This document shows, in pieces, positions 37,279 through 41,952 of a stretch of DNA of 64,000 bases; the first letter of the stretch is position 1, and every line of letters begins with the position of its first letter. Made by a program: the position numbers and the translations under genes. This DNA comes from a virus: positions 1 to 64,000 of IMG/VR virus record IMGVR_UViG_3300020222_002168; one strand, 5' to 3'. The notes under the pieces were generated by a model. That model searched no databases. It was not told the DNA's origin and saw only the letters and a program-made list of their open reading frames with translations.

Positions 37279-37354
37279 TGGGCAGGTGGACGGGAGTTGA
37301 ACCCTATCTTACTGTTTCACAGACAGTTGTGCGCACCGGTACACTATCCCCTGC
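37279..37354 (-). tRNA. tRNA-His(GTG), mismatched 3' half
   Basis: Anticodon arm ACTGT, loop CTGTGAA, ACAGT. The 5' G opposite discriminator C matches the His identity element. The acceptor has two mismatches and the T-stem (TAGGG/CCCGT) two more, so the 3' part may have come from another tRNA. Confidence 0.75.
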
Positions 37355-37435: not shown

Positions 37436-37594
37436 ATCTTTCTCCAGCGCATCTCTGCGCATCTTGAATGAGCGATGCTCGTCGGGACGATGGACTATGA
37501 GATATTCTACTCCGTCAATCTGCTCGACGGCACGAGTATCTTCGCAGACGAATCGCTCACCATTCAATCGATTTCTAAATGTTACGGGTTTCAT
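37391..37594 (-). CDS. Small phage protein running into a tRNA gene
   Basis: 67 residues starting MKPVTFRNRLNGERFVCED, with VEYLIVHRPDEHRSFKMRRDALEK, a conserved marine-phage small protein. The last 15 or so residues are read from the 5' half of tRNA-Arg(GCG), on the same strand. An AAAGGAGA ribosome site precedes the ATG. Confidence 0.7.
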   Translation of the reverse strand: MKPVTFRNRLNGERFVCEDTRAVEQIDGVEYLIVHRPDEHRSFKMRRDALEKDTAVVKGISRNFAKV

Positions 37595-37612
37595 ATCATT
37601 CTCCTTTATGTT

Positions 37613-37687: not shown

Positions 37688-37782
37688 ATGTTCCCGAGAT
37701 GCTGCTTACCCGCGACAGCATAGTCTCTACTAACCTTATAGGCACCCGGCTGGATTCACTGTACAAAGACTGGAACATAGTT

Positions 37783-37879: not shown

Positions 37880-37960
37880 TGGTGCCCCTAATCGGATTCG
37901 AACCGATAGTTATGACACTCCTTTTGAGAGAGCCGCCTTTACCTATTTGGCCATAGGGGC
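37880..37960 (-). tRNA. tRNA-Leu(CAA), intact copy 1
   Basis: Acceptor GCCCCTA/TAGGGGC; anticodon arm GCTCT, loop CTCAAAA, GGAGT; T-arm ATCGG/CCGAT; encoded CCA. Compact variable arm for a leucine tRNA. Confidence 0.85.
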
Positions 37961-37964
37961 ATAC

Positions 37965-38042
37965 TGGAGTGAGGAGTCGGATTCGAACCGACGGCTTTAG
38001 AGTTTTGCAGACTCTTGCATTGGGCCTCTCTGCCACACTTCC
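37965..38042 (-). tRNA. Chimeric tRNA-Cys(GCA), copy 1
   Basis: Body and anticodon (loop CTGCAAA) equal the intact copy at 38655, but the 5' acceptor GGAAGTG is that of tRNA-Ser(TGA) and cannot pair with the 3' strand TCCTCAC. The junction is the shared TGGCAGAG of the two D-arms. Probably not functional. Confidence 0.7.
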
Positions 38043-38050
38043 ATAATCTT

Positions 38051-38122
38051 TGGTGCCCCCAATCGGATTCGAACCCTCATAACCTGGCTTAGAAGGCCTG
38101 GCACAGCTCCATCTGCAGAGGC
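38051..38122 (-). tRNA. Chimeric tRNA-Arg(TCT)-like gene, copy 1
   Basis: Anticodon loop CTTCTAA with TCT, closed by CAGGC/GCCAG (one A-A mismatch). The T-stem 5' strand GAGGG does not fit CCGA T on its 3' side; that 3' end matches tRNA-Leu(CAA) instead. The acceptor can pair with wobbles. D-arm is short. Forms one boundary of a putative cassette. Confidence 0.6.
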
Positions 38123-38124
38123 AT

Positions 38125-38132
38125 TATAAATA
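38125..38132 (+). promoter_or_regulatory. T4-type late promoter TATAAATA
   Basis: Perfect TATAAATA ending 5 nt before the ATG at 38138; no room for a ribosome site. Confidence 0.7.
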
Positions 38133-38137
38133 CTTGT

Positions 38138-38344
38138 ATGAAAAAAATTAATACATTCTTTAGTCTTGCTCCGGCACCTGTGTTTCTACTAGGAGCCGTG
38201 ATAAGTTATTTGAATTCTCATCATGGTATAGAAATGCCCATGATGTGGTTAGTAATGTGTCTGGCTCACATAAGTCCGTGGCTTATGTGGTGGCAACAAA
38301 GATCTTTTCAAAAATTCCAAACTCTGCCCGACAAGCAACAGTGA
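38138..38344 (+). CDS. Small two-helix membrane protein
   Basis: 68 residues with two hydrophobic segments (about residues 7-25 and 35-51), ending in a Gln-rich basic tail. One of two genes inside the putative cassette in tRNA-Leu. Plus strand in an otherwise minus-strand region; a perfect late promoter supports it. Its 3' end overlaps the convergent gene by 37 nt. Confidence 0.55.
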   Translation: MKKINTFFSLAPAPVFLLGAVISYLNSHHGIEMPMMWLVMCLAHISPWLMWWQQRSFQKFQTLPDKQQ

Positions 38345-38556
38345 TAGTGTCCTGCTAGTACAGCAAGTATATCCAGGTAAAGATCCCATAACCGATCTGG
38401 ATACTGCTCATAGTACCCATCAGTGATAAAGCCTATGTCGTAGGCTCTGACCGTACCTTGAGGTCCACGGATATATAACCAAGTAACTGGTCCGTGATCA
38501 CTGTCTCGGACTACTTCTTGAGCAAATTCAAGACTGTTAATTTTTATCCAGTTCAT
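38308..38556 (-). CDS. Small cassette protein (82 aa)
   Basis: 82 residues starting MNWIKINSLEFAQEV; contains WLYIRGPQGTVRAYDIGF and ends near CCLSGRVWNF. No family recognised. Follows the 3' end of the interrupted tRNA-Leu by 13 nt, with an ATTAAATA late-like motif 4 nt before the ATG. Confidence 0.5.
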   Translation of the reverse strand: MNWIKINSLEFAQEVVRDSDHGPVTWLYIRGPQGTVRAYDIGFITDGYYEQYPDRLWDLYLDILAVLAGHYHCCLSGRVWNF

Positions 38557-38569
38557 TGAATATTTAATA

Positions 38570-38650
38570 TGGCCTCCCCGGTAGGAATCGAACCGATAGT
38601 TATAACACTCCTTTTGAGAGAGCCGCCTTTACCATTTTGGCCATAGGGGC
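38570..38650 (-). tRNA. Chimeric tRNA-Leu(CAA), copy 2
   Basis: 5' two-thirds match the intact copy 1 (acceptor GCCCCTA, loop CTCAAAA), but after the T-loop the sequence switches to CCTACCGGGGAGG plus CCA, which pairs with neither its T-stem nor its acceptor. The fitting 3' end (CCGAT, TGGGGGC) is found at 38051-38072. Confidence 0.7.
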
Positions 38651-40414: not shown

Positions 40415-40487
40415 TGGTGCGTCGTGAAGGAATCGAACCCTCAGATAGCTGGCTTAGAAGACCTGCTCCCAATCTATTGGCAGAGGT
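40415..40487 (-). tRNA. Chimeric tRNA-Arg(TCT)-like gene, copy 2
   Basis: Anticodon loop CTTCTAA. The 5' acceptor ACCTCTG does not pair with its 3' strand ACGACGC (3 of 7). ACGACGC instead pairs perfectly with the 5' strand of the tRNA-Val gene 650 nt upstream. The D-arm is short. Boundary of a putative cassette. Confidence 0.65.
40426..40439. repeat. 14-bp direct repeat, T-loop of tRNA-Arg copy 2
   Basis: GAAGGAATCGAACC on the plus strand (T-arm of the tRNA on the minus strand), identical to 41150-41163. The two copies bound the 724-bp segment that would be exchanged. Confidence 0.75.
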
Positions 40488-40488
40488 A

Positions 40489-41127
40489 TTAATTCTTTAC
40501 TAACTGTTGAACAAAATTACGCAGCAGTAAATGATGTCTATATTCATGCCAGTGGGGTTTTAGATAACCTTTAGCATACCAATAGATATCACTTTCGGGA
40601 TGAGGTCCTATTAGGCCTATGTTGTTTTGTATAATAGCAGCTGGATCTTTATTAGCATATCTAGCTACTATATTGTAATCACCACCTTGATCCTCAAAGG
40701 TGCATCCGTCATAGAAATACATAGATTCAGTTTCACCTAACCAATCTATTTCTGCAACTGTTCCAAAACTTCTTTTAATTTCAGATCTAGGTCTTTTTAT
40801 GTATTGTACAGGTTCAACGCCTTGAAGTGCATTAAGATAATACGAGCCTGCCCAGTATGCACCCATACAAATACCAAGATACTTTTTGTTTCTTGCCAAA
40901 AAATTTAGCACAGTATCTTTGAAAGGTTCCATTATATTGTGCCAAGTATCACTATCTCCTAGTCCGCCCGGCACAGCTAAAACTTCATATTTTTTTAAAA
41001 TAGAATCTCTCAGATGATGACGTTCTATGCAATCTATTTCCCAGTCGTCGCTTAATGCTCTTATAATTCCGTGTGCGCTTTGCACACTACATTGAGGATG
41101 ATTTAAAAAAACAGATAACTTTTTCAT
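40489..41127 (-). CDS. Class I glutamine amidotransferase-like (BPL_N type) protein
   Basis: 212 residues from the ATG at 41127; earlier in-frame codons are tRNA-Val sequence. Blocks: LAVPGGLGDSDTW, KKYLGICMGAYWAG with the nucleophile Cys, and IGLIGPHPESD with His and Glu of the triad. This fits the BPL_N/DJ-1-like glutamine amidotransferase fold. Substrate unknown. It is the single gene of a putative tRNA cassette; its stop TAA abuts the 5' end of tRNA-Arg. Confidence 0.7.
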   Translation of the reverse strand: MKKLSVFLNHPQCSVQSAHGIIRALSDDWEIDCIERHHLRDSILKKYEVLAVPGGLGDSDTWHNIMEPFKDTVLNFLARNKKYLGICMGAYWAGSYYLNALQGVEPVQYIKRPRSEIKRSFGTVAEIDWLGETESMYFYDGCTFEDQGGDYNIVARYANKDPAAIIQNNIGLIGPHPESDIYWYAKGYLKPHWHEYRHHLLLRNFVQQLVKN

Positions 41128-41132
41128 AACCC

Positions 41133-41140
41133 TATTTATG
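41133..41140 (-). promoter_or_regulatory. T4-type late promoter CATAAATA overlapping a tRNA CCA
   Basis: CATAAATA on the minus strand, ending 5 nt before the ATG at 41127. Its first bases are the CA of the preceding tRNA's CCA. Confidence 0.6.
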
Positions 41141-41212
41141 GCACCCCCGGAAGGAATCGAACCTCCGTCTGTGCCTTGTAAGGGCACGGCCCTACCATTA
41201 GACGAACGACGC
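41139..41212 (-). tRNA. Chimeric tRNA-Val(TAC)
   Basis: Anticodon arm GTGCC, loop CTTACAA, GGCAC; D-arm and T-arm (GGAGG/CCTTC) fold. The acceptor does not: 5' GCGTCGT against 3' CGGGGGT pairs at 4 of 7. The 3' strand that fits GCGTCGT perfectly is at 40418-40424; the present 3' strand fits tRNA-Arg copy 2. Confidence 0.75.
41150..41163. repeat. 14-bp direct repeat, T-loop of tRNA-Val
   Basis: GAAGGAATCGAACC, identical to 40426-40439. Confidence 0.75.
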
Positions 41213-41653: not shown

Positions 41654-41728
41654 TGGCGGTCCCAACGGGAGTCGAACCCGTCCCTGCGCCGTGACAGGGC
41701 GCTATACTAACCGATATACTATGGAACC
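41654..41728 (-). tRNA. tRNA-Asp(GTC)
   Basis: Acceptor GGTTCCA/TGGGACC; anticodon arm with loop CTGTCAC; T-arm ACGGG/CCCGT; encoded CCA. Confidence 0.92.
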
Positions 41729-41866
41729 ATTAAGTGATAGCACGGTTTACTATCCTCTTGCTACCTGATGTTGGCAGATTATATCTGCCGTTTACCGGTA
41801 TCACAGGCTTCCCGCTTCGGACAAGGTTGGGATTGATCGATCCCTACGAGCCATGCTATCACTTAA
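41729..41866 (-). ncRNA. Structured RNA filling the tRNA-Tyr/tRNA-Asp gap
   Basis: About 138 nt exactly between the CCA of tRNA-Tyr and G1 of tRNA-Asp. Ends form a perfect 13-bp stem (TTAAGTGATAGCA with TGCTATCACTTAA). Inside: hairpins GGGAT/ATCCC and GGCAGAT/ATCTGCC (7 bp, 3-nt loop) plus a CTT-CCG/CGG-AAG stem. It would be cut free by tRNA processing. T4's tRNA region encodes similar stable RNAs of about 120-140 nt of unknown role. Confidence 0.75.
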
Positions 41867-41952
41867 TGGTGGATGCGGTAGGACTCGCACCTACGATGTT
41901 TCCCTGTCACGGTTTTACAGACCGCTGCCTTCGCTGCTCGGCACACGCATCC
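41867..41952 (-). tRNA. tRNA-Tyr(GTA)
   Basis: Type II. Acceptor GGATGCG/CGCATCC; anticodon arm GCGGT, loop CTGTAAA, ACCGT; long variable arm. The T-loop is TGCGAGT rather than TTCGAGT. First tRNA after the main promoter. Confidence 0.9.

Follow-up and report, generated by a model that had tools for sequence, protein, structure and literature searches.

Exchanged tRNA 3′ ends around two one-gene cassettes in a phage tRNA array

Within the window analysed here, the 64,000 nt at positions 1 to 64,000 of the viral record IMGVR_UViG_3300020222_002168, a tRNA-Val(TAC) and a tRNA-Arg(TCT) gene on the minus strand have exchanged their 3′ ends around a 724-bp segment that carries a single gene. How can a segment enter a tRNA gene in such a way that both flanking tRNAs become chimeric, and where might it have come from? 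The genome encodes a DNA polymerase, a ribonucleotide reductase, a head protease, an endolysin and GroEL, and the locus is part of a phage tRNA array in which 22 tRNAs were called within 5 kb of the minus strand, besides the chimeras. The array reads Tyr, Asp, Thr, Gly, Asn, Ala, Pro, the chimeric Val and Arg with a gene between them (cassette 1), Glu, gene, Gly, Ile, Trp, gene, Cys, a chimeric Leu and Arg with another gene between them (cassette 2), Cys, Leu, Ser, Arg and further tRNAs.

Swapped 3′ ends of tRNA-Val and tRNA-Arg

The tRNA-Val gene (41212–41139, minus strand) has the 5′ acceptor strand GCGTCGT and the anticodon TAC, and forms 4/7 pairs with its own 3′ strand CGGGGGT. The tRNA-Arg gene (40487–40415, minus strand) starts with ACCTCTG, has the anticodon TCT and ends in the 3′ strand ACGACGC. 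Crosswise, the Val 5′ strand pairs with the downstream 3′ end at all seven positions, exclusively through Watson-Crick pairs, and the Arg 5′ strand pairs 7/7 with the upstream 3′ end, including two G-U pairs. The fits of the acceptor and T-arm are poor locally and good crosswise, in agreement with an initial annotation made from the sequence, which had described the acceptors in this way. The same annotation placed the switch points inside an identical 14-bp T-arm tract, and this was found as described: GAAGGAATCGAACC (on the coding strand GGTTCGATTCCTTC) is present at 41150–41163, the left junction of the cassette, and identically at 40426–40439, the right junction, with a spacing of 724 bp. 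The swap of the two 3′ ends is confirmed.

The individual parts can be traced in other genomes. The 5′ part of tRNA-Val (41164–41212, minus strand), consisting of the acceptor strand, D arm, anticodon arm and the 5′ strand of the T-stem, has an identical counterpart in L084–L086 and a near-identical one in viral contig L088. The sequence that now closes Val, CGGGGGT-G-CCA at 41139–41149 (minus strand; TTCCGGGGGTGCC), is of the tRNA-Arg type: it was found in 15 other viral contigs, and in most of them it terminates an intact tRNA-Arg. The 5′ part of tRNA-Arg (40440–40487, minus strand), with the acceptor ACCTCTG and a CCAA/TTGG D arm, has an intact orthologue in L116. It now ends in the true 3′ end of tRNA-Val, ACGACGC-A-CCA (40415–40425, minus strand), and the corresponding junction GGAGGTTCGATTCCTTCACGACGCACCA occurs also in L088, which carries GACGGAGGTTCGATTCCTTCACGACGCACCA together with the same 5′ acceptor as Val.

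Neither chimera was called when ARAGORN was run on the window, and Rfam matched the Val body alone of this pair (model positions 10–63). The restored Val was drawn by ARAGORN with a 7/7 acceptor. Folding of the combinations had been proposed as a check, with a divided result: a cloverleaf is obtained for the restored Val, at z = −3.2, compared to −1.6 for the present Val, whereas the z-score does not separate the Arg combinations. The restored Val also exists in nature. It is ~70/74 identical to a tRNA in L088, with the predicted junction exact, and sequences in 15 records of isolated phages can be aligned with 81–100% of the 74-nt fusion; nine of these alignments are full-length, among them that of Pseudomonas phage 16Q at 90.5%. 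The proposed insertion into the T-arm of tRNA-Val is borne out by these uninterrupted forms. In the syntenic relative L104, Pro, Val and Glu are packed without a gene or Arg between them, but there the insert-free Val differs in sequence.

To what extent such fits occur by chance was estimated from intact tRNAs with different anticodons within 72 records. None of 3,139 pairs was reciprocally as good, and one-way fits of the same quality were found in 4 of 6,278 cases. The thresholds of the swap scanner had been adjusted until the known Val/Arg case was detected, which then served as the positive control. Scans of all loci fetched found reciprocal swaps exclusively in this phage lineage.

The passenger gene of cassette 1 (40489–41127, minus strand) encodes a protein of 212 aa resembling BPL_N and class I glutamine amidotransferases (PF09825, E = 6e-7). 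It starts 11 nt past the CCA of Val, and its stop codon lies 1 nt before the 5′ end of Arg. Among 80 viral loci with relatives of this gene, 17 have it ≤120 nt from a tRNA, with varying neighbours (Leu/Gly, His/Val, Phe/Ser, Pro/Thr, Asn/Ala, Pro/Leu); where two tRNAs are close, it starts 8–18 nt past one of them and ends ~10 nt or less from the next, or overlaps it slightly. The BPL_N gene is a recurrent guest of tRNA arrays. Besides those in viral contigs, many relatives are located in freshwater Burkholderiales MAG contigs, which suggests, from sequence similarity, a possible host range of the phage. The contig search with the passenger gene yielded no further swaps. In annotated phages, searches with the protein gave no match, and near and distant DNA searches detected no homologous cassette.

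The Arg 5′ part belongs to a family of short tRNA-Arg(TCT) genes of ~72 nt, in which the D arm is shifted and no linker follows the acceptor. This family is frequent in viral contigs (L103, L104, L107, L116, L141–L156 and the window cassettes), with no match in the annotated phage collection. Some members were scanned as poor fits, which turned out to be a misplacement by the scanner: by eye, GCCTCTG and CAGAGGC pair. In intact members the acceptor strands are matched by class.

A second cassette and further joints in the array

Cassette 2 (38051–38650) lies 2 kb from cassette 1 and has the same build. A tRNA-Leu(CAA) at 38650–38570 has the wrong 3′ end, with which it forms 5/7 pairs in the acceptor and 3/5 in the T-stem; its T-loop is interrupted by an insert of 519 bp that holds a further gene and the 5′ part of a further Arg(TCT). 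The Leu 5′ part (38593–38650, minus strand; acceptor GCCCCTA, T-stem ATCGG) runs into a standard tRNA-Arg(TCT) 3′ end (TTCGATT CCTAC CGGGGAG G CCA; 38570–38592, minus strand), which is also the end of intact Arg(TCT) genes in L129 and L130. The correct Leu 3′ end (TTCGAAT CCGAT TGGGGGC A CCA; 38051–38073, minus strand) is found 519 bp downstream and fits the Leu 5′ part with 5/5 T-stem and 7/7 acceptor pairs. It is attached to the 5′ part of a second short tRNA-Arg(TCT) (38074–38122, minus strand; acceptor GCCTCTG, T-stem GAGGG), a gene with intact relatives in L103, L104, L107 and L110. An intact copy of tRNA-Leu(CAA) is present at 37880–37960 (minus strand), and the second swap is confirmed because this copy ends in the same sequence as the displaced Leu end (22/23 nt).

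The passenger gene of cassette 2 (38308–38556, minus strand) encodes 82 aa of no known family, without a match in Pfam or NCBIfam, and has relatives with 73–88% identity in L132–L137. The DNA of a 68-aa reading frame on the opposite strand (38138–38344, plus strand) is conserved downstream of the gene in the same contigs. In L132 an intact standard Arg(TCT) directly precedes this gene with nearly the same spacer; the contig stops before its expected downstream tRNA. The two Arg pieces of cassette 2 stem from different sources, the 3′ piece from the standard Arg(TCT) and the 5′ piece from the short family, and they fit poorly together (6.6 on a scale of 12). Reading cassette 2 as carrying one intact Arg was therefore rejected, and the inserted piece is the segment between the T-loops of two tRNAs. 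The order Arg-gene-Arg(TCT) occurs in L103, and L110 has the same tRNA pair without the gene. Both cassettes are insertions with ends of tRNA origin, joined to the resident tRNAs in their T-loops, and the same architecture arose twice independently in one array.

Recombination between tRNAs left additional traces. In the syntenic relatives L104 and L114, a chimera of an Ile 5′ and a Gln 3′ part is joined at GGTTCGA, whereas in L110 both Ile and Gln are intact, with HNH and other genes in between. Judged by this comparison, the chimera appears to be a deletion at GGTTCGA, the same T-loop joint. In the window, the second tRNA-Cys (37965–38042, minus strand) begins with GGAAGTGTGGCAGAG, the 5′ end of the tRNA-Ser next to it, and its acceptor is mismatched. 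The Ser part is joined in the D arm at GTGGCAGAG and matches a duplicated stretch from the Leu 3′ to the Ser 5′ end, so that this gene would be the product of a D-arm crossover which duplicated that stretch. All junctions examined fall in the longest tract common to the partner tRNAs, with one tie, as predicted for microhomology recombination. These tracts measure 17–19, 7, 11 and 7 bp, and the Ser/Cys chimera has a D-arm tract of 9 bp; the direct repeats flanking the inserts measure 14 bp in cassette 1 and 7–11 bp in cassette 2. HNH endonuclease-like genes occur in related arrays, and no endonuclease gene was recognised in the tRNA array of the window. An HNH-like gene between Trp and Gln in L012 was considered as a further case; it is accompanied by a T-loop-like remnant, yet without a clean swap.

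The array has several other peculiarities. A tRNA-His (37279–37353, minus strand) with 5/7 acceptor and 3/5 T-stem pairs, of the same sequence in L104 and L114, is either a long-standing chimera or a functional tRNA with unusual features. At 37437–37596 (minus strand) a small gene appears to end within tRNA-Arg(gcg), with the in-frame stop in the anticodon arm. Between tRNA-Tyr and tRNA-Asp there is a 20-nt inverted repeat (95%) with a 105-nt loop (41726–41870), part of which is common to L104 and L114. Moreover, an element of 85–100 nt is conserved in three phage tRNA arrays (window 37693–37779, minus strand; L104 ~1335–1420; L088, minus strand). It is closed by GTTCC/GGGAAC and contains a nearly invariant GTCGCGGGTAAGC hairpin, whose flanking stems change on both sides (ATGCTG/CAGCAT, GTGCCG/CGGTGC, ATCGTG/CACGGT). 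No Rfam match was obtained at the gathering score or with E up to 5, and single-sequence folds were no better than shuffles; the element may represent an RNA of such arrays that has not been described before.

Routes of entry into the tRNA genes

On balance, we lean towards the view that two array segments were copied in from other phages by short-homology recombination (7–19 bp) at T-arms. Each segment would begin in the T-loop of one tRNA-Arg, include the gene and stop in the T-loop of another, short tRNA-Arg(TCT). The T-loops that received the segments are those of resident tRNAs, Val for cassette 1 and Leu for cassette 2. The simplest route would be break repair or template switching in which a co-infecting phage supplied the donor DNA: a broken end would have annealed to the T-arm of a donor Arg, the segment would have been copied, and the copy re-annealed across the break. 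As the outcome, the host tRNA would be split, the donor 3′ and 5′ pieces joined to its halves, and the gene left intact. The chimeric tRNAs at both cassette ends are probably dead.

This copying-in is favoured because the reciprocal fits have no equal in the control pairs, the natural tRNA-Val equals the restored form, and the foreign 3′ ends close tRNA-Arg genes in other phages. It is further favoured by the repetition of the architecture, the second instance of which is backed by the intact Leu copy and L132, by the Arg-gene-Arg(TCT) order in L103 next to the gene-free pair in L110, by the use of the same joint in the Ile/Gln deletion, and by the position of each junction in the longest shared tract. 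Finally, no tyrosine integrase (PF00589) or serine resolvase (PF00239) was detected in 99.5 kb of a genome that is perhaps incomplete, which also speaks for it. On the other hand, a complete donor (Arg, BPL_N gene, short Arg) was sought and not found, and 7 bp of microhomology is little for recombination in phages. Both inserts returned to the exact tRNA that they had entered, which a single integration of a circle would explain equally well, and the Arg pieces of cassette 1 do pair 7/7, compatible with one intact Arg.

The last two points lead to the reading originally proposed, a small circle with one intact tRNA-Arg and a gene that entered the T-loop of Val by a single crossover and could be released via the 14-bp repeats. 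We regard it as unlikely, though it accounts for the net one-point insertion in both cases, the identical repeats and the complete pairing of the Arg 5′ strand with the foreign 3′ end, in which A1 of Arg matches T72. The T-arm insertion itself stood; the intact Arg was not established, and a circle carrying it is not required because the upstream 3′ end of cassette 2 comes from a different, standard Arg(TCT). The two cassette 2 Args share a 13-bp tract in the anticodon arm, the expected joint for a circle, which was not used. Similarly, of the claim that recombination would restore both tRNAs, the Val half holds, but in Arg a CCTCT-type 5′ part meets a GGGG-type 3′ end only through the two wobbles, in contrast to the class-matched intact family. 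The recombinases mentioned above were not found, and no circle or excised form of this phage was seen among the contigs searched.

It is quite improbable that a dedicated site-specific recombinase acting on the T-loop motif GGTTCGANTCC moves gene cassettes through phage tRNA arrays in an integron-like manner. Every T-loop junction, in the two cassettes and the Ile/Gln deletion, is at GGTTCGA, the BPL_N gene sits between many different tRNA pairs, typically 14–18 nt past the first tRNA and ~10 nt or less from the second, and mycobacteriophage Ms6 provides a precedent for integration in a tRNA T-loop (PMC1762012). However, GGTTCGA is merely the longest tract shared by the partners, the Ser/Cys chimera used a D-arm tract, the swaps are limited to one lineage, the tRNAs flanking the BPL_N gene elsewhere can be called as intact, and the 99.5 kb contain neither type of recombinase. 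An ancestral order Val-gene-Arg, with the 3′ ends exchanged in place by gene conversion or double crossover, would result in the same final sequence, and array tRNAs do recombine, as in Ser/Cys and Ile/Gln. It is nevertheless very doubtful: the reciprocal event would be required twice, for Val/Arg and for Leu/Arg, the packed Pro-Val-Glu of L104 has neither gene nor Arg, and the upstream 3′ piece of cassette 2, from the Arg that precedes the gene in L132, would be left unexplained.

A functional arrangement, in which a split tRNA-Val holds a circularly permuted tRNA-Arg and the parts are joined as RNA, is highly improbable, even though the fit between the 5′ and 3′ parts, 724 nt apart, is perfect and permuted and split tRNAs are known in algae and archaea (PMC3978253). 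The joint is a tract of DNA homology rather than a splice motif, Rfam searches returned no group I or II intron or similar family, and for the Arg of cassette 2 the window contains no 3′ end that fits. To our knowledge, the known tRNA splicing endonuclease is absent from bacteria. An assembly artefact, named from the start as a possible refutation, can practically be dismissed despite the metagenomic origin of the contig and its short repeats, because a second, 99.8% identical contig from sample 3300021424 (IMGVR 3300021424_002547; L087, L115, L131) has the same Val/Arg chimera and both cassettes without internal mismatch, with 15–19 SNPs elsewhere, while typical assembly k-mers exceed the repeats in length and L132 independently supports the origin of cassette 2.

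Relation to known systems and biological meaning

Integration sites in T-loops (PMC1762012) and microhomology-mediated amplification of tRNA regions (PMC13096335) are already known. With tRNA-targeting integrative elements such as Ms6, the cassettes share the insertion inside a T-loop and the identical short flanking repeats; Ms6 vectors needed a perfect 26-bp core (PMC1762012). In contrast, no integrase is present in the 724-bp insert or the 99.5 kb, and the insert itself carries tRNA pieces. Classical elements restore their target tRNA, whereas here both tRNAs are chimeric and the targets remain mispaired (Val 4/7 in the acceptor; Leu 5/7 in the acceptor and 3/5 in the T-stem). In phage T6, a 718-bp region with segB and tRNA-Tyr underwent microhomology-mediated tandem amplification beside a homing endonuclease gene (PMC13096335). 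Alike are the short homology, the end of a tRNA gene as a partner and the movement of a tRNA together with a gene of similar size; the T6 case is a tandem amplification, whereas here foreign segments entered T-arms and tRNA 3′ ends were exchanged. SegB of T6 offers a precedent for a break-driven, microhomology-mediated change in a tRNA region (PMC13096335).

The PeSLs of T4-type phages (Arbiol et al. 2010, Comeau et al. 2014), in the account given of them in PMC4503421, likewise use short repeats as the points at which accessory genes are shuffled from phage to phage; those repeats are regulatory sequences, while here the joint is a tRNA T-arm and itself becomes hybrid. Integron gene cassettes are similar in that individual genes, each ending in a structured RNA-like element, occur in variable order, but in the present case there is no IntI, no attC and no sign of a dedicated recombinase, and the gene ends run straight into a tRNA. 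The initial annotation was aware of no description of a tRNA-carrying cassette, inside a phage tRNA array, that leaves both tRNAs chimeric. A literature search of partial coverage found none of inserted array segments that bring about a reciprocal exchange of 3′ ends.

Like bar codes, acceptor stems tell which 3′ end goes with which 5′ part and make the joints readable, and readable joints bear on the gain, loss and reordering of accessory genes and tRNAs in phage arrays. A mismatched acceptor stem with a matching partner nearby is a simple computational test applicable to any genome, and standard tRNA callers overlook such chimeras. A bolder idea, to which we give little credence, is that T-arms form a general integron-like joint system in large phages: genes would travel as T-loop-to-T-loop modules between arrays, via a dedicated recombinase or endonuclease-triggered repair, and chimeric tRNAs would be scars of failed or recent transfers. 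The scars described here record insertion as well as deletion at T-arm microhomologies and link tRNA turnover with the gain of passenger genes. They suggest that rows of tRNA genes serve as joints where phages swap genes.
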